This document shows, piece by piece, positions 21,801-59,262 of a stretch of 60,244 nt of DNA. Source of the stretch: Deltaproteobacteria bacterium (lineage in GTDB: Bacteria; JAMCPX01); assembly GCA_023382265.1 (NCBI GenBank), contig JAMCPX010000011.1, positions 1-60,244 on the forward strand. Reading direction: 5' to 3'. Numbering within the stretch: position 1 is the stretch's first letter; the number at the start of each line of letters is the position of its first letter. A program made the position numbers and the translations under genes. Under the pieces are notes generated by a model. That model made no database searches and was not told the origin of the DNA. It saw only the letters and a program-made list of their open reading frames with translations.

Positions 21801-22496
21801 TTATTTGTATAGTTCACAGGATTGGATGATTTCTTCTAATACTTTTTCAGGGTATCTGCTTTCTGTTACTGGCCTGCCAATAACGATATAATCAGCCCCC
21901 GATTCAAAAGCCATTCTTGGAGTTACGACACGTTTTTGATCATCTCTGCTGTTATTATCCATCCTTACACCTGGAACAACAATAACAGGTTTTCTGCCAA
22001 AACTCTCCCTTAATAATGATGTTTCCCGACCGGACGCAACAATACCATCTATACCCGTATTAACGGCCATTTTTGCAAGTCCGACTACCATATCTTTAAT
22101 ATCGCCGTTCATGCCTATTATAGACAATTGTGAATTCTCCATGCTTGTGAGTATTGTTACGGCAAACAGCATTGACCTTCCGCTATTTACTTCTACCGCC
22201 CTTTTCAGCATCTCTTCCCCACCCATTGCATGCAGCGTTATCATCCTTACTCCAAGATTTATAGCCTGTTCAACTGCTTTGCTTACCGTGTTTGGAATAT
22301 CAAAATATTTTAAATCGAGAAACACATCTTTACCCATGTCAATTATCTCTCTTACGGGTATAGGTCCATGCGCTGTAAATGGAATACTGCCGAGCTTGTA
22401 TGTTGAGATATACTTTGATGTTGCCTCAACTATTGTCCTGATCCTGTCTATCGATGTTTCGTCTATTGCCAATATGATCTTTTTTGCATAATCCAT
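21801..22496 (-). CDS. pyrF: Orotidine 5'-phosphate decarboxylase
   Basis: 231 residues. It converts OMP to UMP in pyrimidine synthesis. The TIM barrel begins KKIILAIDETS; the catalytic segment is FLDLKYFDIPNTV (near 60-70) with the Asp-Lys-Asp set; the phosphate-binding end has VVPGVR and ADYIVIGRPVTES (about 170-215). It lies 1 base after the DUF4388 gene and 21 bases before livF on the minus strand, in an apparent operon. Confidence 0.95.
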   Translation of the reverse strand: MDYAKKIILAIDETSIDRIRTIVEATSKYISTYKLGSIPFTAHGPIPVREIIDMGKDVFLDLKYFDIPNTVSKAVEQAINLGVRMITLHAMGGEEMLKRAVEVNSGRSMLFAVTILTSMENSQLSIIGMNGDIKDMVVGLAKMAVNTGIDGIVASGRETSLLRESFGRKPVIVVPGVRMDNNSRDDQKRVVTPRMAFESGADYIVIGRPVTESRYPEKVLEEIIQSCELYK

Positions 22497-44065: not shown

Positions 44066-45478
44066 TTACATGGCTATAAAACTGATTACTCCATTGGATA
44101 TTAAATCGTAGGTTGGAGAGACAGTGTTCGTTCCCGGCTGCTTTGGGGCGTTAAGGAGTTTGTTAAGGTCTACTATGGCAAGACAGGACTTTGAACTGTC
44201 TATCAGGAGTCCCATGGGCTGTTTGTTGATTACAGCAGTAAATGCAGAAAGCCCGTGTGGATCTCCGACATTGCTCCACGAAGAAACCGAAGGACACACG
44301 GTCGTTGGTGTTGGAATTTGAGCCGACGTGTAGGATGTTATAGTGATGCCTCCTGATGTGGATGTTGTCGGCATCTGTGCCGCACCGATATCATCTCCGA
44401 ATTCCCCCTCAAGAAACATGATATGGCTTGATGATTCTACTACCATGCCGGTTGTAAGGTAACCGCTTGGAGAATACACATTTTGCAGGGGAACAACTGC
44501 ATACGGAGCATCAAATGTAGCTGTTGAATCATTGAACGCGGCTGCATTCATATTGAGAACCAGTAAAAGCGGCGTCCATTCATGTCCTATTGTAATTAGG
44601 TCGGTAGATGGATCTACTGAAACCGCATCCGCGGTAAGTGAGCCAATACCCGTACTATTAAGCTCAGGAATTCCATTGGCTGGGTCCGTGTTTGTATCCA
44701 CCATCCTTTTAGACCAGTGGTAAACCTTGCTTTTGTTTATATCTATCACCCACAGATATTCATCTGTAGATGTTATTGATCCCGAATCAGCATATTCCGG
44801 GGAATATATCATATTAGCGGCAGGATCATAACCGAAATTTTCGGTTGAGAGGTCAACGGGTATAGTAGCAGTCAGATCAGACAGAAACTGTTTTGTCACC
44901 TTACCTGTATAATCGACGACCCGGTATCCGTCTCCCGAGGAAACTATGAATCCGTGATCAACCGGATCTATGATAACACCGCAGTCAAGGCAGCTTCCTC
45001 CGCTGAAACTTGAATATACCGTATTACCAAGATCAGGCTCGGTTACCGTAGGTGCAGAACCATTGCTTATATAGCCGGCTACATCTATAATTGCTATTTT
45101 TGAGCTGTCGTAGCCAACGCACACAACTCTGAGGTTTTTACCGTCTGCAGCACAGCTATCCACCGCGAACGATGTGGTTATGGTAGTTTGTGTAGGGCCT
45201 GACGACATCACTCCGAGAGAGTGCTGCTGATAAGAAGAGATGGTAAAAGAAGAACCTTTTTGAGATAGCGGTACAATATTCACGGTATTACCATTTGGAA
45301 TAAAGGCTATCACCAGATCGCCGGTATTTATTGTTGCAAGACCGCCTGATGTAGTCGCAGAAGATACAATAGTCTGTCCAACTCCGCTTTTACTACCCTG
45401 ACACCCAGATACTATGAAAATCGTAATAACCATGATCGTACCTAACAAATTTAATTTTTTACTTTTATATTTTTTCAT
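44066..45478 (-). CDS. Lipoprotein with beta-propeller-like repeats
   Basis: 470 residues. Signal IMVITIFIVSGCQGSKSG gives a lipobox Cys near 26. The rest shows recurring segments such as LRVVCVGYDSSKIAIIDVAGYI, YRVVDYTG and YLWVIDINKSKVYHW, like the blades of a WD/YVTN-type propeller, but no family motif is certain. It is between a small unknown gene and the tiny ORFs on the minus strand. Probably surface-exposed; function unknown. Confidence 0.75.
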   Translation of the reverse strand: MKKYKSKKLNLLGTIMVITIFIVSGCQGSKSGVGQTIVSSATTSGGLATINTGDLVIAFIPNGNTVNIVPLSQKGSSFTISSYQQHSLGVMSSGPTQTTITTSFAVDSCAADGKNLRVVCVGYDSSKIAIIDVAGYISNGSAPTVTEPDLGNTVYSSFSGGSCLDCGVIIDPVDHGFIVSSGDGYRVVDYTGKVTKQFLSDLTATIPVDLSTENFGYDPAANMIYSPEYADSGSITSTDEYLWVIDINKSKVYHWSKRMVDTNTDPANGIPELNSTGIGSLTADAVSVDPSTDLITIGHEWTPLLLVLNMNAAAFNDSTATFDAPYAVVPLQNVYSPSGYLTTGMVVESSSHIMFLEGEFGDDIGAAQMPTTSTSGGITITSYTSAQIPTPTTVCPSVSSWSNVGDPHGLSAFTAVINKQPMGLLIDSSKSCLAIVDLNKLLNAPKQPGTNTVSPTYDLISNGVISFIAM

Positions 45479-45939: not shown

Positions 45940-47523
45940 TTATTTAAACAGCTTTTTCAGAATAAAAGAAAAAAGAGCTCCAACGTAACTCATAAAAAAG
46001 TTACGTTTGGGTTTGGTGATGATGTGGGATGCATAACAAACATATTTTCCAAAAACTGGATTTAAAAAACAATAGTTTTTACATTGTATCTTCATCATTT
46101 TTTTCTCCGATGAACCGTCTATATAATATCCTCTGCTGAACAATAGCTTTGAATGATCCATATAATAATCAATGAAAGTCTTTCTTGTTAAAATTATATT
46201 GAATTTTTCAGGATTCAAAAACATTGGTGACGCTGGATCCAACTCTATCGGATAGGTAATAAGCTGTTTAATATTTTTATACTTTGTTAAATACCTCTGT
46301 AATGCTATTGTCTCTCCAAGGTCTTTCTCTGTTTCCAGCGGCAATCCACCGGAAAAATAAATGCCCGCATTTACTCCTTTTCTCTCCATATATTTTAAGG
46401 TTTGTATAAGTTCATTGTTGGTATAGAAGTAGCCTTTGTGTATCTTTCTGAGTTGCTCAGAACCGCTCTCCGGTGAGATTATTATTTGAGAGTCTTTAGA
46501 AAAGGTAGTACTAAATGCGTCTATGAAATCAATGGATGGCAGTGCGTATGAGTTGAAGTTATATACTATCTTTAGCCTATTATCTCTAATAGCTTTAAAA
46601 AGATCTAAAAAATATGAATTTGAATTTTGGTCCGGCAGATCAAAATCGGTATTGAAATTTTTAAAACCCCATTGTATCCCGTCCATGATGTTTTCTATTA
46701 TTTTATCCGGCGATCTTAATGTAATACGAGCTTTACCGTTTAAAAGTTCATTTGCATTATACCCTCCTCCACAGAAGCTGCAATTGGCTGCGCATCCTTT
46801 ACCGATTGGAAGATACATGGATGCTACTAAAGAACTTTTATAAATGATATTGTTAAGCGCCGGATTGGTGTTGAAATTAAAAAAAAATAACCGCGGATAG
46901 AAATTATAGTTGTTCAGTAATGCATAGTTGCTAAAAGAAGTCCCGTCCAATATCTCTTTTGTTGTTACATAATTGTATTTATTCTGTGCGATGCTGTCCC
47001 CGTTCCGCCATACAAGGTTGGGAATGGAGGATATATCAGCTTCTCTTCTAACAATGTACTTCATAATCTTAAGAAGAGGTATCTCACCATCCCCTGATAT
47101 GATTCCATCAATGAATTTGAAGTTTTCCAGTATCTCATTTTTAAAAAAACTTGCAGTCAAGCCGCCGACAACTATAAATGTGTCCGGTAAAACCTCTTTT
47201 ATCTCTCTTGCAACTTCTATAGCGTCAAAAGATTGATGATGCCAATGAAGCGTAATGCCGACCACTTTCGGTTTTGTAAAAAGGAGATATTCTCTTAAAG
47301 AGAAATTTTGAGTAAATAACTTTTCAATACCAAGGTGCAGGACTTTAACATTAAATCCATGACTATCCAAAAAATCCGCCATGAATAAAAGACCCATAGG
47401 CATGAGATTGACGAATTGCACCTTATTAAACGGGTGCATATAATGATTAAACTTCGGGGTATGTATCAGAAGACAATCAATGTCCTCGTTATCCTTATCC
47501 GGTAATACGTTATTTATATTCAT
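45940..47523 (-). CDS. Cobalamin-binding-type radical SAM protein
   Basis: 527 residues. The N-terminal part (about 15-165) is a B12-binding-like fold (PMGLLFMADFLDSHGFNVKVLHLG, VVGITLHW, FIVVGGLTASFF) without the DxHxxG motif, so the cobalamin may bind base-off or not at all. The radical SAM cluster motif is GKGCAANCSFCGGG (CxxxCxxC near 255), followed by a TIM-barrel with SPESGSEQLRKIHKGY and a C-terminal extension. Members modify many substrates. No good SD is seen. It lies at the edge of the polysaccharide region; the remnant and leader copy C lie just upstream. Confidence 0.85.
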   Translation of the reverse strand: MNINNVLPDKDNEDIDCLLIHTPKFNHYMHPFNKVQFVNLMPMGLLFMADFLDSHGFNVKVLHLGIEKLFTQNFSLREYLLFTKPKVVGITLHWHHQSFDAIEVAREIKEVLPDTFIVVGGLTASFFKNEILENFKFIDGIISGDGEIPLLKIMKYIVRREADISSIPNLVWRNGDSIAQNKYNYVTTKEILDGTSFSNYALLNNYNFYPRLFFFNFNTNPALNNIIYKSSLVASMYLPIGKGCAANCSFCGGGYNANELLNGKARITLRSPDKIIENIMDGIQWGFKNFNTDFDLPDQNSNSYFLDLFKAIRDNRLKIVYNFNSYALPSIDFIDAFSTTFSKDSQIIISPESGSEQLRKIHKGYFYTNNELIQTLKYMERKGVNAGIYFSGGLPLETEKDLGETIALQRYLTKYKNIKQLITYPIELDPASPMFLNPEKFNIILTRKTFIDYYMDHSKLLFSRGYYIDGSSEKKMMKIQCKNYCFLNPVFGKYVCYASHIITKPKRNFFMSYVGALFSFILKKLFK

Positions 47524-47893: not shown

Positions 47894-47977
47894 GATTATA
47901 TATTCATTCTTGGAGCCGGACGCCACATATCTGTCCTCCTTCTGATTTTAATATACAAGTTTTACAGTAGATGTCAA
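47894..47977 (-). promoter_or_regulatory. Conserved promoter-leader element, copy C
   Basis: Minus strand: TTGACA (47972-47977), 16 bases, TATATT, then a leader with TATGTGG, CCGGCTCCAAGAAT and a final ATATAAT. It matches copy B (57655) best, including an exact 14-base block. It faces away from copy A with 67 bases between the -35 boxes. It heads the radical SAM remnant and then the radical SAM gene at 47523. Confidence 0.7.
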
Positions 47978-48044
47978 TAGGGCGTATTTTCTTTATATAG
48001 AGTCTGCTTCGAGCACACCCTTTTTTTTTAGATGTATTCCGTGG

Positions 48045-48130
48045 TTGACATTATACATAGTTTTATATATCCTATAAAAGGCGACAATCGTTATATGAAT
48101 ACCATCCCCATGGATAAATTAAATATAATC
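48045..48130 (+). promoter_or_regulatory. Conserved promoter-leader element, copy A
   Basis: TTGACA (48045-48050), 17 bases, TATCCT (48068-48073), then 57 bases ending ATAAATTAAATATAATC. It aligns without gaps to copy B over 86 bases at about 66 identical positions by hand count. It precedes the GT-C/SLBB gene, whose ATG is at 48184. Confidence 0.75.
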
Positions 48131-48142
48131 TTATCTTATCAT

Positions 48143-48161
48143 ATCCTCTGCTCCAGAGGAT
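48143..48161 (+). other. Leader stem-loop after copy A
   Basis: ATCCTCTG-CTC-CAGAGGAT, a perfect 8-base stem, in the 5' leader 12 bases after the conserved element and 22 bases before the ATG at 48184. No T-run follows, so it is not a plain terminator. Confidence 0.5.
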
Positions 48162-48183
48162 TCACTTTAAAAAAGGCTTTAGT

Positions 48184-50598
48184 ATGAATAATAAAATAGT
48201 TAATGTTTTTAAATCCAAAGAACTAAAACTGATTAAAACTTTATCTTTATATTTTATAGTCTCTATCGTTTCCATTCTATATCTATCTCATTTCACCCAT
48301 TTTCTTTTTGCTACCGATGTAGCAAACGATGAAGGAGTAATGTCGGGAGCATGGCGTATTGTGCAGGGGCAGGTGATCTACAGAGACTTTTTTGAATTTT
48401 TTGCGCCCGGGAATTTTTTCTTACTCGCACTTATATATAAATTGTTCGGCTATAGTCTTATTGTTACAAATAAAGCCGTAATTGTTCTTGATGTTATTTG
48501 TAATATCCTGCTCTTTCAAATCTCATACATGATGTTAAAACGCTGGTACGCTATTATACCTCCGTTACTATTTCTTATTATAGGCTTCCCAAGTTGGTTT
48601 ATCTTCAGTCATTATTGGACAACATCGGTCACGTTTCTAACAGCTCTTATATTACTTACAGTTTATATGGAAAGACTGACTGCATCGGATAAATCAACTA
48701 TTACATACCTTTTTTTATCTGGTTTTTTTGTTGGACTAACCGGCATCTTTTTGCAATCAGCGGGCATATATACGACGGTTGTACTACTGATTGTCCTTTA
48801 TCTCAGGACGAGAAGGCATGAAGGTATCGTTAAACGAATCGCTGTGTTCGGTATCGGCATTGCTATACCAGTTTTGGCTTTTGTATTATATCTTTTGTTG
48901 AATAATGCCTTCATGCCGTTCATACATAGCCAGATTATTCTCTTGAAGCTCTATCCCCCCAATACCTTATTTTACTCAAAACCGTTAATATCTTTCTATA
49001 ACGTAATAACACCTGTAAAGTTAATGATTGTTGTTTCTTTTATTGGGAGTATTGGTTTCCTGATCTTAAAAAAAAATGCGTCAAATAAAGAGGTTGTTTT
49101 ATTTGCAGGCAATATAATATTTTTTCTTTATACGTGGCACTGGTTAACTATAAGCAATAGTGTAATAGACCCGGGCCGTGCGACATCGGGCTTGAGTTTT
49201 ACGTTCATTATTTACTGTGTGTTTTTATTTACCGGATATATAAAGAATCATTATTCCATGTCGGTGTATAAACTTGCAGATTTGTTTATACATGGTGCAT
49301 TTATGCTTATTGCTGCAATAAGCATTATGATTATCTACAAAGACATATCAAACATAAGAACAAGGGTGTTTCATTTTACTCTTAACAATACTTCTTACTG
49401 GACATACGATGAAGATGGTGCAAAAGACCTTATCAAATTTAATAATGAGTCGGAGAGAATATTGGGTAACGATAGAGAGGTGTTTGCTTATCCTCTTGCA
49501 TCCACATTGTATACGCTGCTAAACTTAAGAAATACAACGAAGTATGATATAATAGTAAGTTTTGGACAAATCGCGAGTGGCTTGTCAGGCCTTTTTAAAG
49601 ATGTCGTTGATCAATTAGAACGTTTAAAAATAAAATACATTATTACTTATCAATGGTCTTACAGATTCATAATCATCTGGGCGCAAAGGAACGGAGTGGG
49701 GTATAAGCCTAATATGATCGAGAAGTTTATATGGGATAACTATGAGCCGGTGGTCCATGTGGGTCTTTTTGATCTATGGAAACTAAAGCTTTTAAAAGCC
49801 GGCGATGTGCTTACCGTGACTGCCGCTAACGGTGTGAGCAAAAAACATGCTTCGTACAGGCAATTTACTGTAGGCATGCATGGAAATATCACATCGCCGC
49901 ATAATAAAAGGATAAACGTATCTGGTATGCCCTTGTATGATCTTAAGGATATACTTGCCCGCGAGTACGGGATACCATCAGATGAGATCAGTATAACAAC
50001 CAATGGCATTACATCGATTTCATCAGAGGTCTTCTCAGTATCCATTACCGGTGCCGTTTACAAGCCGGGGCGGTATTTCCTCAACCAAGGGGGCAGGTTG
50101 ACCGATGTGATGATGCTTGCAGGTGGTCCATTAACTACATCCGATCTGGGTGATGTCATTATAAAAAGAGGAGGGGAGAACATTGATATAAATTTCCTTA
50201 ATTATTTTCAAACTCATAACAACGAATATAATCCTGTGATAGAAAAAGGTGATAAGATTTACATTCCTCAGAGTATACGGCAGGAGAAGGTATTCCCGGG
50301 GGCACTGAACATAACACTTCTCGGGACCATACAAAAACCCGGACGCATTTTTTTTAATAAGGGTGCAAGACTTATGGATGCGATCGGCAGGGAGCTTTCC
50401 CCAACTGCTGATCTGAAAAATGTGATCATGATACGGGGTAATCAAATAATGAGGATAGATTTTTTAAGATATATACAGACGCATAATAATGGTGATAATC
50501 CATTGTTAGAAAACGGTGATATTATATACCTGCCGGAGACAGGTGAAGTTATTGATAAGGCACAAATTATCAAAAAATCACGGGATTTATCTAAATAA
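48184..50598 (+). CDS. GT-C-like membrane glycosyltransferase fused to SLBB domains
   Basis: 804 residues. Residues 1 to about 400 have ten or more membrane helices with the same acidic first-loop (DVANDEGVMSGAWR...YRDFFEFFAPGNFFLLALIYKLFGYS) as 17573 and 59440. A soluble domain (about 405-530) matches that of 17573. Then come a linker and two SLBB beta-grasp domains (about 615-690 and 706-795), each of the form 'G.V.KPGR..LN.G.RL.D.M' ending 'NP..E.GD.IY.P'. SLBB domains are typical of Wza/polysaccharide export proteins. The fusion suggests a periplasmic link between sugar transfer and export. I know no characterised example. Confidence 0.75.
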   Translation: MNNKIVNVFKSKELKLIKTLSLYFIVSIVSILYLSHFTHFLFATDVANDEGVMSGAWRIVQGQVIYRDFFEFFAPGNFFLLALIYKLFGYSLIVTNKAVIVLDVICNILLFQISYMMLKRWYAIIPPLLFLIIGFPSWFIFSHYWTTSVTFLTALILLTVYMERLTASDKSTITYLFLSGFFVGLTGIFLQSAGIYTTVVLLIVLYLRTRRHEGIVKRIAVFGIGIAIPVLAFVLYLLLNNAFMPFIHSQIILLKLYPPNTLFYSKPLISFYNVITPVKLMIVVSFIGSIGFLILKKNASNKEVVLFAGNIIFFLYTWHWLTISNSVIDPGRATSGLSFTFIIYCVFLFTGYIKNHYSMSVYKLADLFIHGAFMLIAAISIMIIYKDISNIRTRVFHFTLNNTSYWTYDEDGAKDLIKFNNESERILGNDREVFAYPLASTLYTLLNLRNTTKYDIIVSFGQIASGLSGLFKDVVDQLERLKIKYIITYQWSYRFIIIWAQRNGVGYKPNMIEKFIWDNYEPVVHVGLFDLWKLKLLKAGDVLTVTAANGVSKKHASYRQFTVGMHGNITSPHNKRINVSGMPLYDLKDILAREYGIPSDEISITTNGITSISSEVFSVSITGAVYKPGRYFLNQGGRLTDVMMLAGGPLTTSDLGDVIIKRGGENIDINFLNYFQTHNNEYNPVIEKGDKIYIPQSIRQEKVFPGALNITLLGTIQKPGRIFFNKGARLMDAIGRELSPTADLKNVIMIRGNQIMRIDFLRYIQTHNNGDNPLLENGDIIYLPETGEVIDKAQIIKKSRDLSK

Positions 50599-50821
50599 CA
50601 TCGTGTGAGCGTGCCTCAGAATCCACGGCCTTTTGCGGTGGTAGTCCACAAAACATATAATATCCTATTCTGTCATTTATAAAGTCCTTCATGTCCGCTT
50701 ATTTTTGAATGCATTTTAGGGATTAAGTAAGTATTTTACCATCCCTATGCCTTCTCCTGTAATAGCAATGTTCATTCAAAATATTGCTTTTATCAAAAGT
50801 ATATTATAAATTTATCATTAG

Positions 50822-50853
50822 AAGGACACTCTACCGAAAATTATTCTGTCCTT
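50822..50853 (+). terminator. Possible terminator after the GT-C/SLBB gene
   Basis: AAGGACA and TGTCCTT pair over 7 bases with an 18-base loop, followed by TTAA. Weak. The surrounding gap 50599-51070 otherwise holds the short broken frame described next and nothing else recognised. Confidence 0.3.
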
Positions 50854-50871
50854 TTAACGAGGGTATATAGC

Positions 50872-51001
50872 GTGAAAAGGATTTGGTTTCATAAAGCAAA
50901 TTCACTTCAACCCGCTGAGAAGTTTGAGGGGATTAATGTCTATGCATGAGCAGTTCCGAAAGGATAGGGACGATACAATTTTTAAGGAAGCAATATTTTA
51001 A
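50872..51001 (+). pseudogene. Short broken ORF, possibly a decayed antitoxin-like gene
   Basis: GTG at 50872 follows GAGGG at SD spacing and encodes MKRIWFHKANSLQPAEKFEG..., stopping at TGA after 25 codons. A shift of one frame continues from ATG 50942 to TAA 51001 (HEQFRKDRDDTIFKEAIF). The start resembles small 'KxxxFHKAxSFxEAExF' proteins that often pair with nucleotidyltransferases. The match is short and the identity is a guess. Confidence 0.25.
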
Positions 51002-51070
51002 TCTCAAGAAGGCGAAGAAAAATACGAGAGGGAAATAGGTTTTGCTAAAAGCAAAATATGAACGGTAAAA

Positions 51071-51892
51071 ATGAATAAATTGCAGAAGCTGGTTATTGCC
51101 ATTTTATTTGTATCCTCCCTGATATATGTTTTTTTTGATATAAACGATATCGATGTCAATAAAAAATCAAGACCGGATTTAGCAGTATCAAGTGCAATGG
51201 GCGGGGCTATAAAATATGCTGATGATGCAGCCTCCATTATCAAAAATGCGGATATAGAACGTGCAAGCGTATTGGTACTTTATAAATCGACTTCCCCTTT
51301 ACAGACCAATTCGAGCATGGAAACCGGCATATCTTATATTTCTTTTTTTACATTTAATGCGGAAATGCAGTATAAACTTATGCCTTTACCTGTTGATGTA
51401 TTTACAAGAATGCCGGATATAAAATTCGTACAGCAATTCGATTATGTTTTGCTGCCATATGACATGACATTAAAAAATGTATGCAAATTGATAAAACAAG
51501 CCTCAGATAAATGGCTACTTTATAAGTGCGAAAAACGCTCTATAGGCAAGAGCCCTGAATTAACCACCGTAATGCAGGTTGTTAAGATATATTTGCTTGT
51601 TGCTATGAAGCATACCGGAAGTTTTACCCTGAATAAAGGGGCACGATTAATAGATGTCTTTAGTAAAATTAAATTCCGATTGACTAACTCGGATTTAAGC
51701 AGGGTTCTTATACTAAGGCATAACAAGATAATCCATGTAAACCTTATAAGATATATACAGACTAAGGACATCGTTTATAATCCATTATTACGCGATAAGG
51801 ACACTGTTTATATACCTCAGGCCGGTGAACATTTTGACATTAACAAAATAAAAAAAACTATGAAGTCACTTATTATTAAGGAAAACGAATGA
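51071..51892 (+). CDS. Membrane-anchored SLBB-domain protein
   Basis: 273 residues. One N-terminal transmembrane helix (about 5-24), a middle soluble domain (about 50-165) I do not recognise, and a C-terminal SLBB domain (about 178-255) with GSFTLNKGARLIDVF and LIRYIQTKDIVYNPLLRDKD ending VYIPQAGEH, clearly related to the domains at the end of the GT-C/SLBB protein. The SLBB part is therefore periplasmic. It is coupled to the next gene by a 4-base overlap. Possibly an accessory to polysaccharide export. Confidence 0.7.
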   Translation: MNKLQKLVIAILFVSSLIYVFFDINDIDVNKKSRPDLAVSSAMGGAIKYADDAASIIKNADIERASVLVLYKSTSPLQTNSSMETGISYISFFTFNAEMQYKLMPLPVDVFTRMPDIKFVQQFDYVLLPYDMTLKNVCKLIKQASDKWLLYKCEKRSIGKSPELTTVMQVVKIYLLVAMKHTGSFTLNKGARLIDVFSKIKFRLTNSDLSRVLILRHNKIIHVNLIRYIQTKDIVYNPLLRDKDTVYIPQAGEHFDINKIKKTMKSLIIKENE

Positions 51893-53238
51893 AAGCTGCG
51901 ATGATTCCATGCGTTACCCTCTTGTTTGATATCTTTATAAGCTGGCTTATAGGGTTTCTCGTGCTTTCAATCATAGATTTAAGAAAATATTCAAAAGGCA
52001 AAATGATACGATTGTTGATTGATTATGCAATGGGAAGCGGCATATTAACACTGCTCATGTTTATATCGGGGATAACAGCGGGGAATTTCGATGGCTTGAT
52101 TATTTTTATTCTTGGTATAGCCATTGTATACTTAATCAGGAGAAAAACAGACCCGAAACCGGAAAAATCCGCCAAAAATATAACCGGCTATATTTATATC
52201 ATCCCCGTATTTGTATTGATTATTGTGATGCTTATTATTTCCTATAAGGTAATGCCGCTCGGCTGGGACCCAAGATTTATTTACCTTTTCAAGGCAAAGA
52301 TGTTCTTTCTTGAAAATAGAGTAAGTTCAATTTCTCTAACCGTGCCGCAATATTTATTTTCTCATCCGGATTACCCATTGCACATACCGCTTCAGATCGC
52401 TTATCTATATAAATTACTCGGCCATGTTGATCCCGATACGGCGAAGATTGTTCTCTTGATGTATCCTCTTTTTATATGTATATTTATGTACGGTTATTTA
52501 AAATCAATAATGCCGGAATATGCCGCGTTATTATCAGCCCTTGCAATTTTTACACTCCGGAGACTCCTCGGTTTGACTTATTCGGGCGTTGACGTTCCGC
52601 TTGCACTGTACCTGCTTATCGGTACCTCATTTTACTATCTTTTTATAAAAAAAGGAGATGTACACTATCTAATATTGGCCGGATTATCCATTGGTATCGG
52701 TGCATGGATAAAGTATGAAGGGATTGCATATCTTGCAAGTATGGCGATATGCATATTTGTAGTTACGAAGTATTATCTCAGGCAAACTGTCTTTACATCA
52801 TTAAAACGGACAATATGTTTTTTAGTCCCTGGCATGGTCTTCATATTACCGTGGCGTGTATTTATTCATATATACCATTTTCCTGTAGATTGGATCAGGT
52901 ATGGCCTTAATAATAATTTGACTGTCAATTCCTTCAGGTTATACAAGATTACAGAGTCATTTGGGAAAGAAATGATACTGAACGAGCCGTTCCTGATTAT
53001 TGTTATAATCTCATTAATCTACACGATCTACAGAAAACGAATCGGGCTTATTTTATCCGTATACACTGTATTCTTTCTTCAGTTCGCTGCGTACATAATT
53101 GCACTTTATCTACAGCCGAATCCATTATCCTCGGAGCTTGGTTTTACTGTGCAAAGGTTGATGATACAGATCACGCCTTCTATGCTATTGGTAAGCCTTG
53201 CATTTCTATTCGATAAGGACATCATGGATGAAAGATAA
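51889..53238 (+). CDS. GT-C-like polytopic membrane protein
   Basis: 449 residues with about ten to eleven membrane helices. The loop PLGWDPRFIYLFKAKMFFLEN followed by FSHPDYPLHIPLQIAYLYKLLG is the acidic loop pattern of lipid-linked sugar transferases (GT39/PMT-like), and YSGVDVPLALYLLIG, GLSIGIGAWIKYEG follow. It lacks the soluble C-terminal domain of 17573 and 48184. It overlaps the next start by 11 bases. Donor and acceptor unknown. Confidence 0.7.
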   Translation: MKAAMIPCVTLLFDIFISWLIGFLVLSIIDLRKYSKGKMIRLLIDYAMGSGILTLLMFISGITAGNFDGLIIFILGIAIVYLIRRKTDPKPEKSAKNITGYIYIIPVFVLIIVMLIISYKVMPLGWDPRFIYLFKAKMFFLENRVSSISLTVPQYLFSHPDYPLHIPLQIAYLYKLLGHVDPDTAKIVLLMYPLFICIFMYGYLKSIMPEYAALLSALAIFTLRRLLGLTYSGVDVPLALYLLIGTSFYYLFIKKGDVHYLILAGLSIGIGAWIKYEGIAYLASMAICIFVVTKYYLRQTVFTSLKRTICFLVPGMVFILPWRVFIHIYHFPVDWIRYGLNNNLTVNSFRLYKITESFGKEMILNEPFLIIVIISLIYTIYRKRIGLILSVYTVFFLQFAAYIIALYLQPNPLSSELGFTVQRLMIQITPSMLLVSLAFLFDKDIMDER

Positions 53239-55675
53239 ATATAAGCTTCTTTTAGCATGTTCTTTTTTTGCACTTACATTTATTATCGTCTTTTCACACT
53301 CAATCTTTACAAATAAAATAATTCTTATATCTAATGTACATGATTTCAATCCATTCTTTTCAGTAAAAGGCGTACCTTCATTCCCGGCAGAACCATTTGA
53401 TACCGTCAATCAGTTTCTGCCGTGGTTTCATTTTGACAGGGAATCTTTGAGAAATTTCTCGCTGCCGCTATGGAACCCCGATAACGGCTGCGGTGCGCCT
53501 CATATAGCAAATATTCAGTCGGCATTTTTTTATCCCCTTAATATGTTCGTATATCTGTTTGACTGGAAATGGGGATTGCTGCTCTTATACTTTTTTAAGT
53601 TTTTCCTTGTTAGTTTGTTTGCGTACCTTTATTTATCGGAAATAGGTGTAGATTACCGTGCTGCTCTTGTTGCATCTATGGCGTGTATGTATTCCGGCTA
53701 TATGTATATGTTCCAATTCCAGGATACCGGTGCGGCATTCTGTTTCTTTCTCGGGCTATGGGCAATAGAGTTCGTAATAAAACATCCTGATAGATTTATG
53801 GGATATGTTTTATTGATGACGGCATTCGTTACCGCCGTATTTGCAGGCCAGCCAGAAATATTATTTTTTATGACATTTGTTCTTGCTGTGTATTTCCTAA
53901 TAAGGGTATTTACCGAATATGGATTTGATAAACAGGGATATCTCATTATAGGGAAAGCATGCTTATTTATATTTATAGGCATTCTCATATCAGCAATTCA
54001 GCTATTGCCGTTTATTGAGTATTTACATACAAACACGGTATTTTCTTACAGAACCTCAATCAAGGGCATATCATTTTATCCCCTTTCATCGTTTTTGGCT
54101 GCGATAAGCGATTTCTTCGGTATGAATATTATCACTATAAACGCATCTTCTTTTCACTGGATGCATACTCGGGTGGTGAATTATATTGGTATGGTGTTTT
54201 TCCTTTTTGGTCTTGCCGGGATAGTAAATCTTTTTAGAGAACGGATTATTAAAACATACACCGCGTTATTTATTGTGACAATGATTATACCATTCAATAT
54301 CCCTTTGATACACAATATTTTTGCCGATATATTAGGCTTTGATGTTGCCAGAAAGAGCTATCTGTTAATATTTTCAGGCTATTTCCTTATATTTATCGGG
54401 GCGAAGTATCTGGGTGCCTTTTTAAACGGGAAATATAAACCAAAAACAATCAACATTGCCGTATACTTAACTGTATTCATAATCCTTGTTTTATTCTTGA
54501 TGTCCGGGAGGTATTATAGGCTTAACATTGCTCCCGTATGTATAGCCATATTTGTGGGCATTGCTGTCCTTTTTACAATGAAGATAAAGAATAAAAATGT
54601 TGTAGCAGTATTGCTTGGTATAATGGTGTTTTTATTTCAGGCCGTTTTATTGATAGTTGTTCTTTCACCACCTCTGAACCCTGATTACTTTTTCCCGACC
54701 AATGCTATTATAAACAAAATAAAAGGTGATAACCCCCCTTTCCGTGTCTTTCCTGTAATGAAAAGTGGTATAAAGGCTTATGATCCCGATCTGAATACCT
54801 TTTATAACATAGAGGACCTTCGAAACTATGATACAATGGGTGTAAGATGGTATGATAAATTTGTATTAAACCTCTTAACAGAGCCGCGCATAACAAACTT
54901 TTTGAATGTCAAATACATTATATTGCCGCGGCATACAGCTATTAATGCTGCTGTATCAGCTTCCCAGGTGCAGACTTTAGAACCAGCGATCGTATCTTAT
55001 AATAATATCTCGCTTTATATAAACAGATATTCTTTTGACATTGATATGCCTGTAAATAAGTTTCAACCTGTTCTTTCTGCCAACGGTTTTACGCTTTACA
55101 AAAATCCGGATACATTGAGAAGGGCATTTATGGTCTATAATTATAAGATTGCGGATACGCATAACAAAGCGTTTGATCTTGTAAGCTGGTATGCATCACA
55201 ATTAAGCGAGACGGCAGTCATATTTAAGGAAGATGCAAGGTATGCATCATTTATGCCGGTAAATACGGTAACAACATCAAGCAGTAGTGTTTCTTTTGAA
55301 AAGTACTCTCCAAATCATATAAAGCTGCATGTTGTTACAACTTTGCCCGGGCTGCTTGTAATAAGCAATACCTATTTTCCAGGATGGCATGTTCGTATCG
55401 ACGGCAGGAAGTCAAAGGTCATAAGGACTGATTATGCATTTCAGGGGGTATTTGTTCCCGAAGGCATACACTGGATTGAGTTGGATTACATGCCGCTGAG
55501 CTTTGTTATCGGGTTTGTGATTTCAATAATAGGTATTCTTGCTGTACTATTGTTGTATATCGTTTACCTCAAATCGCACGATGATAAAAGTGCAATTAAT
55601 GCATATCCATCAGCCGTGAAAGTATCGCATCCTGAATATAATGATATGCCGTTAAAAAACAAGAAAAAAACTTAA
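53228..55675 (+). CDS. YfhO-family membrane protein
   Basis: 815 residues from the ATG at 53228, which gives MKDKYKLLLACSFFALTF and an 11-base overlap with the gene upstream; a longer frame to 53198 is less likely. About twelve helices in the first 490 residues, then a soluble part and a last helix. DxVNQFLPWFHFDRESLRN and WNPDNGCGAPHIANIQS near the start and LVISNTYFPGWHVRIDG near the end (about 700) are YfhO marks. YfhO proteins are thought to glycosylate lipoteichoic acid or other surface polymers with lipid-linked sugars. Role here inferred. Confidence 0.8.
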   Translation: MKDKYKLLLACSFFALTFIIVFSHSIFTNKIILISNVHDFNPFFSVKGVPSFPAEPFDTVNQFLPWFHFDRESLRNFSLPLWNPDNGCGAPHIANIQSAFFYPLNMFVYLFDWKWGLLLLYFFKFFLVSLFAYLYLSEIGVDYRAALVASMACMYSGYMYMFQFQDTGAAFCFFLGLWAIEFVIKHPDRFMGYVLLMTAFVTAVFAGQPEILFFMTFVLAVYFLIRVFTEYGFDKQGYLIIGKACLFIFIGILISAIQLLPFIEYLHTNTVFSYRTSIKGISFYPLSSFLAAISDFFGMNIITINASSFHWMHTRVVNYIGMVFFLFGLAGIVNLFRERIIKTYTALFIVTMIIPFNIPLIHNIFADILGFDVARKSYLLIFSGYFLIFIGAKYLGAFLNGKYKPKTINIAVYLTVFIILVLFLMSGRYYRLNIAPVCIAIFVGIAVLFTMKIKNKNVVAVLLGIMVFLFQAVLLIVVLSPPLNPDYFFPTNAIINKIKGDNPPFRVFPVMKSGIKAYDPDLNTFYNIEDLRNYDTMGVRWYDKFVLNLLTEPRITNFLNVKYIILPRHTAINAAVSASQVQTLEPAIVSYNNISLYINRYSFDIDMPVNKFQPVLSANGFTLYKNPDTLRRAFMVYNYKIADTHNKAFDLVSWYASQLSETAVIFKEDARYASFMPVNTVTTSSSSVSFEKYSPNHIKLHVVTTLPGLLVISNTYFPGWHVRIDGRKSKVIRTDYAFQGVFVPEGIHWIELDYMPLSFVIGFVISIIGILAVLLLYIVYLKSHDDKSAINAYPSAVKVSHPEYNDMPLKNKKKT

Positions 55676-55686
55676 GGGAATTTCAA

Positions 55687-56835
55687 ATGATGAATAAAAT
55701 TATTTTTGGAAAACCAGATATCAGAAAAGAAGACATTGATACTGTGGTAGCTGCTTTAAAAAGCGGTTGGATAGGTATGGGCTTTATGACAAAGCTTCTT
55801 GAAAAGGCTTTTTTACAATTAACAAGGGCGAAATACGCTGTTGCGGTATCAAGCGGCTCTGTGGGTTTGTTTATATCGATGATAACATCCGGTATTTCAA
55901 AGGGCGATGAGGTTATTACATCACCAATGACGTTCCCGGCAACTGCCAATGAAATTATACACACAGGAGCTGATGTAAAGTTTGTGGATGTTGATGACAA
56001 TGGTAATATTGATGCCTCAAAAATAGGAAAGGCCATAACAAAAAGAACAAAGGCTATAATACCTATACATTTATACGGAAGGCCGTGTGATATGGATAGC
56101 ATTGTGGATATAGCGGGAAAACACAAACTTTTTGTTATTGAGGATGCGGCTCATGCACTTGGTGCTAAATACAAAAGTAAGAGTATAGGTAATATTGGGA
56201 ATGCGGCGGTATTCAGTTTGTATGCAACAAAAAACATAACTTCTGCTGAGGGTGGAGTTATAACAACGAACAATAAAGGGCTTGCTGATAAATTGAGATT
56301 GTTGAGATCCTACGGAATAACAAAAACATCATGGGAAAGGTTTAAAAAAACTGAGAGCGGTATCCCGTATGATACAGTCTTGCCTGGTTACAATTTTGAG
56401 ATACCCGACGTGCTTTCTGCAATTGCACTTTCCCAGATTCACACTTATTCGGAAAGGACTGCACGCAGGAGATATATATGGGAACAATACGATACGGCAT
56501 TTAAAACACTTCCCATAGGTCTACCCGATGCAGGTGATATTGATCATTTACATGCTATGCATCTTTACACAATCATGATCGACAAAAAGAGAACCGGCAT
56601 AGACAGGAAAACATTTATTCATAAACTTAATAACTACGGCATTGGAACGGGTATCCATTTTATATCATTGCATCTTCATTCCTATTACAAGAAGAAATAC
56701 GGCTATAGTGCCTATGATTTCCCTCATGCTTTAAAGATCTCAAATCAAACACTATCGCTGCCTCTTACATCGGGTATGACCGATCAGGATGTAAATAGGG
56801 TGATAAATGCAGTAAGGCGGTTATGCAATGGATAA
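55687..56835 (+). CDS. DegT/DnrJ/EryC1/StrS aminotransferase
   Basis: 382 residues. PLP enzyme that aminates nucleotide-linked keto-sugars for surface polysaccharides. The start GKPDIRKEDIDTVVAALKSGWIGMG, the PLP site with AVSSGSVGLFI, VIEDAAHALGA and the catalytic Lys in FSLYATKNITSAEGGVI (near 187) are all present. AAGGGAA precedes the ATG. It overlaps the next gene by 8 bases. The sugar substrate is not known. Confidence 0.9.
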   Translation: MMNKIIFGKPDIRKEDIDTVVAALKSGWIGMGFMTKLLEKAFLQLTRAKYAVAVSSGSVGLFISMITSGISKGDEVITSPMTFPATANEIIHTGADVKFVDVDDNGNIDASKIGKAITKRTKAIIPIHLYGRPCDMDSIVDIAGKHKLFVIEDAAHALGAKYKSKSIGNIGNAAVFSLYATKNITSAEGGVITTNNKGLADKLRLLRSYGITKTSWERFKKTESGIPYDTVLPGYNFEIPDVLSAIALSQIHTYSERTARRRYIWEQYDTAFKTLPIGLPDAGDIDHLHAMHLYTIMIDKKRTGIDRKTFIHKLNNYGIGTGIHFISLHLHSYYKKKYGYSAYDFPHALKISNQTLSLPLTSGMTDQDVNRVINAVRRLCNG

Positions 56836-57547
56836 ACCGCAGCTAAGCATCGTTCTTGCATGTTATAATGAGGCATCACATCTCGAGAAAAGTTTTGACA
56901 GATTAAAAGGTATACTCTCATACTCAAATTTGATTTATGAGATTATATTTGTTGATGACAAAAGTACAGATAATACCATAGAAGTAATAGATAATATTTT
57001 CAAAAGTCACCGTGGTATGAGATTAAATAAAATCCTTCATAACATAAATACAGGCAGAGGAAAGGCTGTTACGGATGGTCTTAAGTCAGCAGAGGGTGAA
57101 GTAGCCGGCTACATAGATGCAGATCTTGAGATAGACCCGGTTTATATCTATTCATTTTATCATGCTATTGAACGGGGGTATGATGCCGCCATTGGTGAAC
57201 GGGTATCACGTTTTAGCATGCATTCAATTCCAAGGTTCTTTACGGGCAGGGGATATAATATGTTCATGCGTACATTGATAAATCTACCTTTGCATGATAC
57301 AGAGGCCGGCATTAAGTTCTTTAGCAGGCAAAAACTCATGCTTATTTTGGATAGTATGGAGGATCATCACTGGTTCTGGGATACGGAGATATGCGCCAGG
57401 ATGTATAAAAAAGGTTATAAAATTAAAGAGATACCATGTGTTTATGCAAGGAGCAGTACGAAAAGATCAACCGTCAAAATTATACCGGATTCAATATATT
57501 ATTTTAAGAAACTGGTAAAATTCAGAACCGTGTACAAATCTTTGTAA
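56828..57547 (+). CDS. Family 2 glycosyltransferase
   Basis: 239 residues, GT-A fold: LSIVLACYNEASHLEKSFD, IFVDDKSTDNT (near 43) and the metal-binding AGYIDADLEID (near 95). HWFWDTEICARMYKKGYKIKEIP (near 180) is typical of dolichol-phosphate-mannose-synthase-like enzymes that load a lipid carrier with sugar, which would feed the GT-C proteins nearby (inference). No membrane helices. It ends the operon that runs from 51071. Confidence 0.88.
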   Translation: MDKPQLSIVLACYNEASHLEKSFDRLKGILSYSNLIYEIIFVDDKSTDNTIEVIDNIFKSHRGMRLNKILHNINTGRGKAVTDGLKSAEGEVAGYIDADLEIDPVYIYSFYHAIERGYDAAIGERVSRFSMHSIPRFFTGRGYNMFMRTLINLPLHDTEAGIKFFSRQKLMLILDSMEDHHWFWDTEICARMYKKGYKIKEIPCVYARSSTKRSTVKIIPDSIYYFKKLVKFRTVYKSL

Positions 57548-57555
57548 ACTAACCT

Positions 57556-57590
57556 AAATAATGTATTTGAAGGTACATTATTTTTATTAC
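57556..57590 (+). terminator. Terminator of the polysaccharide operon
   Basis: AAATAATGTA and TACATTATTT pair perfectly over 10 bases with an 8-base loop, followed by TTATTA. AT-rich, but in the right place 9 bases after the GT2 stop. Confidence 0.6.
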
Positions 57591-57654
57591 CCTCCGTTTT
57601 ACATGTAAAGCAAAAGAAAAAATTTTTTCTGTCTTTTCCAAGCTAAGCAATACC

Positions 57655-57740
57655 TTGACATTATTCATGGATTTATCTATCCTTTTAAATGAGGCAGTTG
57701 TTATGTGGAGACCGGCTCCAAGAATAAATTAAATATAATT
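57655..57740 (+). promoter_or_regulatory. Conserved promoter-leader element, copy B
   Basis: TTGACA (57655-57660), 17 bases, TATCCT (57678-57683), then 57 bases with TATGTGG, CCGGCTCCAAGAAT and ATAAATTAAATATAATT. Same length as copy A with no gap; shares the middle block with copy C. It precedes the radical SAM gene at 57868. Confidence 0.75.
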
Positions 57741-57867: not shown

Positions 57868-59262
57868 ATGAAGATACTTTTTATAATACCACCTTTTTTG
57901 TCGGTAGGGAAAAAATCATCACATAGCCCTCATCTTATTCCAAATCTGGGAATTGCCTATATGGCTTCTATTTTAAAGAACGAAGGCCATGAAGTTAATG
58001 TTATTGATGCACTTGCAGAGGGCTTATCAAGAGCATCACTTATAAATAAAATTGCCGTAGTACAGCCTGATATAGTTGGTTTGACTGCTTCAACGTATCA
58101 AATTTATGATGCAGCAGAAATCGCTAAAGAAGTTAAGGGCTTGTCATCAGAGATTATCACGATAATAGGCGGTTATCACGCATCTGCTTTGCCGGAACAA
58201 ACATTAAAAGAGTTTGATAGCTTTGACTATCTTGTATCCGGTGAAGGCGAATTAACCCTGTCGGAATTACTTAAAGCAATATCATCCGGTAACAATGATA
58301 TGCTCAAGGACATAAAAGGAATCGTTTATAGGACAGGGAACAAGATTATTGTAAATCCTCAAAGACCGTATATAGATGTAAATACATTACCCATGCCTGA
58401 TTTTGATGAATTTAATTTAAGTTTATACAAACCGTTTTATACATTTTTAATCCGCAAGTTAAGGGAACTGCCTGTTATGACATCAAGAGGCTGCCCTTAT
58501 GATTGTGTGTTTTGCTTCAGATCGCAGGGGAATATTGTAAGATATAAAAGTTTACAATCTGTAATAGATGAAATCAAAAGAGATATAGAAGTGTACCACA
58601 TAAATCAGATATTATTTACAGACGAGACTTTTACAATCAATATGAAGCGTACAGAAGCTATCTGCGATGAATTGATCAGCACAGGTATTAATAAGAAGAT
58701 AGAATGGGGATGCGAGACAAGAGCCGATGTCGTAGATGAAGCGTTGCTAAAAAAAATGAAGCGTGCCGGGTGCAGGGTGATCTATTATGGTGTAGAATCC
58801 GGCGATCAGGGGATACTGGATCATGCTACAAAGGACTTAAAGATTGTTGATATAAAAAATGCCGTAAAATGGACAAAGGATGCGGGTATTGATGTATACG
58901 CTAATCTTATTATAGGGCTTCCTTATGATACTGAAGAAACAATAAACAGGACTATTGATTTTGCAATTGAGCTTGATCCGGATGCGGTATCATTTGCAAT
59001 ACTCACACCATTTCCCGGAACAGAACTCGTTGATATGATTAAAAAAGGTAAGGGTGAATTAAAGATTATTGCGCATGATTGGAGAGATTATAATAAGCAG
59101 TTTGGCAGAGCACTTGAACTTGAGTACTTGAGCATAAAACAGCTTAGGAAACTTCAAAGGAAAGCATATATAAAATTTTATTTTAGGCCCAAAAGGTTTA
59201 TAAATATGTTCAAAATTGTAGATATAAGAGCATTGATATCTTATTTCTTACATAGATTATAA
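57868..59262 (+). CDS. Cobalamin-binding-type radical SAM protein
   Basis: 464 residues from ATG 57868 (MKILFIIPPFLSVGKKSS); an in-frame GTG at 57844 would add 8 residues and is less likely. Residues about 1-150 are a B12-binding-like domain (LGIAYMASILKNEGHEVNVIDA, GGYHASALPEQTL, SGEGELTLSELL) lacking DxHxxG. TSRGCPYDCVFCFRSQG carries the CxxxCxxC cluster motif (near 207-214), and the barrel has YGVESGDQGILDHATK and ANLIIGLPYDTEETI. Such proteins act on lipids, cofactors or sugars; the substrate is unknown. A degraded copy of its end lies at 47612-47719. Confidence 0.88.
   Translation: MKILFIIPPFLSVGKKSSHSPHLIPNLGIAYMASILKNEGHEVNVIDALAEGLSRASLINKIAVVQPDIVGLTASTYQIYDAAEIAKEVKGLSSEIITIIGGYHASALPEQTLKEFDSFDYLVSGEGELTLSELLKAISSGNNDMLKDIKGIVYRTGNKIIVNPQRPYIDVNTLPMPDFDEFNLSLYKPFYTFLIRKLRELPVMTSRGCPYDCVFCFRSQGNIVRYKSLQSVIDEIKRDIEVYHINQILFTDETFTINMKRTEAICDELISTGINKKIEWGCETRADVVDEALLKKMKRAGCRVIYYGVESGDQGILDHATKDLKIVDIKNAVKWTKDAGIDVYANLIIGLPYDTEETINRTIDFAIELDPDAVSFAILTPFPGTELVDMIKKGKGELKIIAHDWRDYNKQFGRALELEYLSIKQLRKLQRKAYIKFYFRPKRFINMFKIVDIRALISYFLHRL

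Follow-up and report, generated by a model that had tools for sequence, protein, structure and literature searches.

The window, that is, the whole 60,244-nucleotide stretch of DNA analyzed here, carries a promoter-leader element in three copies. Copies A (48045-48130, +) and B (57655-57740, +) form a gap-free alignment with 66 of 86 bases identical, exactly the count (about 66 of 86) made by hand in the preliminary description, and a scan of both strands found copy A to be the sole other site of the window with at least 50 identities to B. Copy C (47977-47894, −) has TTGACA and the CCGGCTCCAAGAAT block in common with B, as had also been described, although small gaps are needed to align it.

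In copy B, the predicted promoter (57655-57683, +) consists of a −35 TTGACA at 57655-57660, a 17-base spacer and a −10 TATCCT at 57678-57683. It is followed by a putative Shine-Dalgarno (SD) core, GAGG (57691-57694, +), located 8 bases 5′ of the ATG of a short open reading frame, MWRPAPRIN* (57703-57732, +), which has nine codons and a stop (ATG TGG AGA CCG GCT CCA AGA ATA AAT TAA). On the other strand, copy C has a predicted promoter (47950-47977, −) with a −35 TTGACA at 47977-47972, a 16-base spacer and a −10 TATATT at 47955-47950, a candidate SD sequence AAGGAGG (47935-47941, −) and the frame MWRPAPRMNI* (47896-47928, −) of ten codons and a stop (ATG TGG CGT CCG GCT CCA AGA ATG AAT ATA TAA); the SD cores of B and C lie 5-8 bases upstream of the ATG. 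Copy A has the candidate promoter TTGACA-N17-TATCCT (48045-48073, +) and, at 48093-48122 (+), a degenerate short frame that keeps 22 of the 30 bases of B's frame; its start codon now reads ATA in place of ATG and its second codon TGA in place of TGG, and the MWRPAPR frame is lost. We read copy A as a probable decayed copy with its promoter kept. A putative alternative frame of 30 codons, MNTIPMDK...KALV* (48095-48187, +), ends in a stop overlapping the ATG of the next gene at 48184. ATATAAT or TATAAT is found at or just past the stop codon in B, A, C and two copies from related genomes, G005:C127 and G003:178k (window 57733-57740 and its equivalents); this AT-rich motif could be a common remnant or a second −10.

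Behind copy B is a B12-binding radical SAM gene (57868-59262, +; Pfam PF02310 and PF04055), whose start we reassigned from GTG 57844 of the ORF list to ATG 57868, orthologues beginning with ATGAARATACT. Copy C is followed, after a 372-base spacer, by another B12-binding radical SAM gene (45940-47523, −), the 527-aa product of which is 70% identical to its orthologue in the related genome G003, itself with a MWRPAPR* leader. The 470-aa ORF downstream of this gene (44066-45478, −) has no Pfam match, and G003 has a second radical SAM gene at that place. Downstream of copy A lies the gene for a GT-C-like membrane protein of 804 aa with C-terminal Poly_export/SLBB domains (48184-50598, +). Proteins of 800-950 aa that join a GT-C/PMT-like N-terminal membrane part to a C-terminal SLBB part occur at four places (window 48184-50598, L084:4897-7323, L080:6301-8856 and L081:3872-6715), two of which match PMT_2 and two of which also have Poly_export. 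It is unusual for glycosyltransferase-like and polysaccharide-export parts to be fused in this way.

Copies and conservation of the short frame

Gene finders do not see bacterial genes as short as this. The copies were collected by searching for the peptide, in the first searches with the peptide fixed and neither TTGACA nor SD required. In the window's own genome (G000), a degenerate-codon search found two further intact copies outside the window, MWRPAPRII* (contig C43) and MWRPAPR* (contig C56). Among 97 other genomes searched, several copies were present only in G003 (four) and G005 (three), relatives of the same family, and one single match was found in an unrelated genome, G024. The intact copies are accordingly 11 in three genomes, four of them in G000. 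A perfect TTGACA is located 48-53 bases 5′ of the ATG in 11 of 11, and each has an SD sequence of the GGAG/GAGG type, nearly all the others having GGAG/GGAGG, which is stronger than that of B. A model built from the 11 copies, with copy A left out, gave scores in the own genome of 3.7e-19 for B, 1.8e-15 for C and 1.3e-6 for A.

Inspection of the aligned frames revealed a codon pattern. Codons 2-7 always read WRPAPR, and their mean pairwise identity is 0.91, 1.00 and 0.58 at codon positions 1, 2 and 3: the second position is invariant, the first varies only between CGN and AGR (both Arg) and the third varies in five of the six codons. No fewer than 10 changes between codon types are needed, and every one is synonymous; with about 28% expected to be synonymous at random, the chance of all ten being so is about 3e-6. 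This figure carries a bias, the copies having been collected by their peptide. In a less circular test, nine genomes were searched for TTGACA-N38-50-ATGTGG, leaving everything after Trp free; the only matches with an SD (judged by eye) were the 11 copies and one probably decayed orthologue in G003. The latter reads MWRSAMS... and precedes ubiX at the place where G005 has an intact MWRPAPRIK*. This pre-ubiX copy (L105:1559-1650; G003:C15:71 kb) is now a 30-codon frame, MWRSAMSLENLRSKQRGFWSVWNGLVVLFR*, with the stop/start overlap with ubiX retained, and may be a decayed copy or a longer leader.

Codon 8 is Ile, Leu, Met or a stop in all copies; the tail that follows MWRPAPR has 0-5 residues and is free beyond codon 8. 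Between orthologous leaders the peptide is kept and the promoter spacers and post-stop sequences have diverged; the peptide MWRPAPRIN is identical in copy B and its orthologous leader, G003:C15:193062. A one-mismatch search of the own genome found no near-variant peptide with the same promoter. Pairwise identity averages 0.85 over codons 1-7, compared with 0.35 in the promoter spacer and 0.29 at bases 31-60 counted from the A of the ATG, indicating that conservation ends at or just after the stop codon. The earlier suggestion that more than a promoter is kept holds, although it missed that the leader is a frame predicted to be translated. Conservation is at the level of the peptide, as looked for in a leader peptide. 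Judged from its sequence, the conserved leader represents a new coding gene of very small size, 7-12 codons that begin with MWRPAPR.

Distribution and genomic neighbours

Nine genomes of the phylum, all of one family, were compared, and the cassette is present in three of them, from two genera. A model search of the genome and its relatives, as proposed in the preliminary description, found the leader conserved in G003 and G005; in the six sister genomes that do not have the peptide, the model yielded only promoter-like partial matches, with E about 0.004 to 0.05. Eleven weak-match loci from the family search were inspected and rejected as ordinary promoters and starts, or chance. We then scanned 84,980 species genomes for the SD with the exact codons, using a pattern that required GGAG and so misses two of the 11 known copies. 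This gave 59 stretches, among which TTGACA with the short frame, the full cassette, occurred only in those from the two relatives; the other inspected matches were without TTGACA and mostly in GC-rich or long frames. Two matches in viral contigs were discarded, as they belong to longer, GC-rich frames and lack TTGACA. In G003, all five copies (four intact and one probably decayed) cluster on a single 282-kb contig (C15, 71-194 kb) of a 2.2-Mb genome. Short leader peptides are known as a class. The literature searched contains no paper with the MWRPAPR sequence and describes neither its use at many operons nor its partner genes.

The orthologous 527-aa B12-binding radical SAM gene stands behind copies C, G003:190k and G005:C10, and a second radical SAM gene behind B and G003:193k; the genes behind G003:178k and G005:C127 are further members of the copy-B type. 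The mfd gene follows the radical SAM gene in G005:C127 and is directly behind the leader in G003:123k. Behind G005:C71 is ubiX, whose start codon overlaps the stop codon of the leader, and a radical SAM gene is about 1 kb away. A co-directional gene is thus found behind 9 of the 11 copies (seven radical SAM, one ubiX and one mfd), in agreement with the view that the copies head different operons; the expectation that they might stand only before polysaccharide operons fails at ubiX and mfd. The remaining two, C43 and C56, have no co-directional gene behind the leader. The C56 copy has as its neighbour a convergent radical SAM gene, which ends 112 bases from it. The C43 copy, on an 8.5-kb contig, has SLBB genes as its only neighbours and faces a convergent one; its leader resembles that of C, and the protein of the divergent SLBB gene is 50% identical to the one behind A. 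Because C43 resembles the C/A locus, it may have lost its radical SAM gene by rearrangement.

When orientation is ignored, a B12-binding radical SAM gene is found no more than about 1 kb away from 9 of the 11 copies, and an estimated 3-4% of each genome (from 33, 18 and 16 such genes per genome) is this close to one. By our arithmetic, the association is far beyond chance, even when the copies are grouped into seven loci. Matches to B12-binding radical SAM proteins number 16-33 in G000, G003 and G005, as compared with 4-8 in the relatives without the peptide (G001, G002, G004 and G006-G008). Seven radical SAM proteins are at least 65% identical to that of copy B; four are encoded directly behind a leader, two further along an operon that begins with one, and the seventh (G000:C15) lacks a leader. 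Among protein families, the neighbouring enzymes match BchE/HpnJ best, all far below the cut-off.

Proposed role as a cis-acting leader peptide

By analogy with the systems described below, the reading we favor is that the MWRPAPR cassette represents a new leader-peptide family, very short and acting in cis, mainly for B12-radical SAM operons in polysaccharide regions, and we give it a probability of roughly one half. Shared control of the operons, as the preliminary description had proposed, would be the most likely reading of the copies. From the observed frame, its synonymous-only variation, the invariant −35, the spacing and the genomic company, we infer the following regulation. A strong sigma-70-type promoter would give a transcript with a very short 5′ UTR, an SD sequence and the 7-12-codon frame, the first seven of which encode MWRPAPR, and translation of this frame would be coupled to expression of the operon behind it. 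The nascent Arg-Pro-Ala-Pro-Arg chain may pause or arrest the ribosome near codon 7 while the A-site holds an Ile, Leu or Met codon or a stop, perhaps with a small-molecule ligand, and the pause would alter whether transcription or translation proceeds into the operon.

Consistent with such an arrangement, the short frame with its ribosome site is located between the promoter and a co-directional first gene in 9 of the 11 copies, the exceptions being C43 and C56; the spacing from leader to operon is 57-372 bases or none, and the predicted 5′ end is close to the SD. At ubiX, the link would be direct translational coupling, because the leader stop overlaps the next start. No intrinsic terminator was found near B or C or in the eight spacers. 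Rho loading sites tend to be C-rich; a rho gene is present in the genome, and the eight spacers are not C-rich. The ribosome site of the first gene shows no consistent pairing to the leader in these spacers. Because the spacers hold no common read-out element (terminator, C-rich rut site or ribosome-site hairpin), the cis-acting leader is the most likely reading and not a firm one; how a pause would be read out at the copies other than that of ubiX is not visible in the sequence.

Among the closest known systems are the macrolide-sensing leader peptides of resistance genes. MsrDL (MYLIFM) and MefAL (MTASMRLR) are established short leader peptides; the arrest motif Arg-X-Arg is present in MefAL and ErmDL, and stalling on MsrDL takes place at the stop codon (PMC10314930). 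Like MWRPAPR, these are leader ORFs of 6-14 codons directly 5′ of the controlled gene, in which the conserved signal is the peptide and not the RNA. In contrast to them, MWRPAPR has prolines between its arginines, is reused at many operons with no attenuator hairpin found, and stands before radical SAM, polysaccharide, ubiX and mfd genes. ToiL, the leader of E. coli topAI-yjhQP, is a uORF that controls the operon behind it and in which only the first seven residues are conserved, followed by a variable tail (PMC12121999); however, it serves one operon and acts by way of Rho and a hairpin that involves the ribosome site of topAI, and no conserved pairing of that kind was seen at MWRPAPR. The RAPP-type arrest peptides (ApdA, ApcA, ApdP and relatives) are likewise Arg/Ala/Pro-rich arrest sequences in uORFs (PMC10987492, PMC12992588), but in them an N-terminal localisation signal is combined with a spacer longer than 30 residues. 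With 7-12 aa and RPAPR instead of RAPP, MWRPAPR lacks the targeting signal, the spacer and the RAPP-like C-terminal motif of a Sec/YidC arrest peptide.

Other explanations and significance

The main rival to the leader peptide is that the peptide itself is the product. MWRPAPR could then be an encoded heptapeptide that a new B12-radical SAM group in glycan loci uses as its substrate or as a cofactor precursor, RiPP-like and of the size of the microcin C precursor, modified by the adjacent enzymes, or a trans-acting signal common to the loci. We consider this unlikely and keep it in view because the linkage to B12-radical SAM genes holds regardless of orientation, and the surplus of such genes in the peptide-bearing genomes agrees with it as well. 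B12-radical SAM enzymes include peptide methyltransferases, and the neighbouring enzymes have weak matches to RiPP C-methyltransferase models. These matches are all below the cut-off, however, and with BchE/HpnJ as the best matches the RiPP similarity is generic. The gene adjoins a candidate maturase gene, as a RiPP precursor gene does, but 7-12 aa do not divide into a leader and a separate core. The microcin C precursor MccA is also encoded by a seven-codon gene beside a modifying-enzyme gene (PMC6495379); its enzyme is of another class, and MWRPAPR differs further in having several copies per genome, some not beside an enzyme. The repeated encoding of one heptapeptide, the copies before ubiX and mfd, and the varying length of the C-terminal tail argue against a product. 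General inspection of the neighbourhoods also showed no recognition element, protease or exporter beside the copies.

The short frame might also act as a landing pad, in which a strong 5′ ribosome site protects the mRNA or loads ribosomes and the peptide is unimportant. This would fit the strong SD within about 15 bases of the predicted transcription start and the little or no SD of the radical SAM genes behind it. Weak SDs are nevertheless common in the window, where 13 of 47 genes have no match of three or more bases, and a pad does not need one fixed heptapeptide kept through at least 10 synonymous changes, which makes this reading improbable.

Still less credit is due to a DNA-binding protein site or a structured RNA over promoter and leader, both raised in the preliminary description, with the reading frame incidental. 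The invariant TTGACA and an inverted repeat, TGGAG-N5-CTCCA, in B-type copies would suit it. The variation is codon-periodic, however, which does not support conservation of the leader through a DNA-binding site. With regard to RNA, alignment folding and pair counts over the 11 copies gave no covariation, the candidate helix shows no compensatory change and has its fourth pair broken in 7 of 11 copies, and there is no Rfam match in the window. Control by RfaH/ops or NusG paralogues resembles the present case in the common 5′ control of polysaccharide-region operons, but here the conserved sequence is a reading frame; GGCGGTAGNNT is absent from the leaders, and the ops core GGCGGTAG occurs in the window only at 22193 (−), far from the copies. 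None of the three mechanisms named in the preliminary description is supported in the form given there. Recent duplication of a promoter cassette with no selected leader function, suggested by clearly paralogous copies such as the similar leaders of C and C43 with their related SLBB neighbours, is very improbable and largely refuted by the conservation pattern, since it would not leave a near-random spacer beside a fixed peptide.

Most of the known short leader peptides belong to a single operon and respond to antibiotics or amino acids. In the present case, many operons of a single genome carry the same fixed heptapeptide, which is tied to B12-radical SAM glycan loci. If MWRPAPR is a leader, it would define a peptide-based regulon; if it is a substrate, it would be among the smallest ribosomal peptide precursors known and a first substrate lead for the neighbouring radical SAM enzymes.
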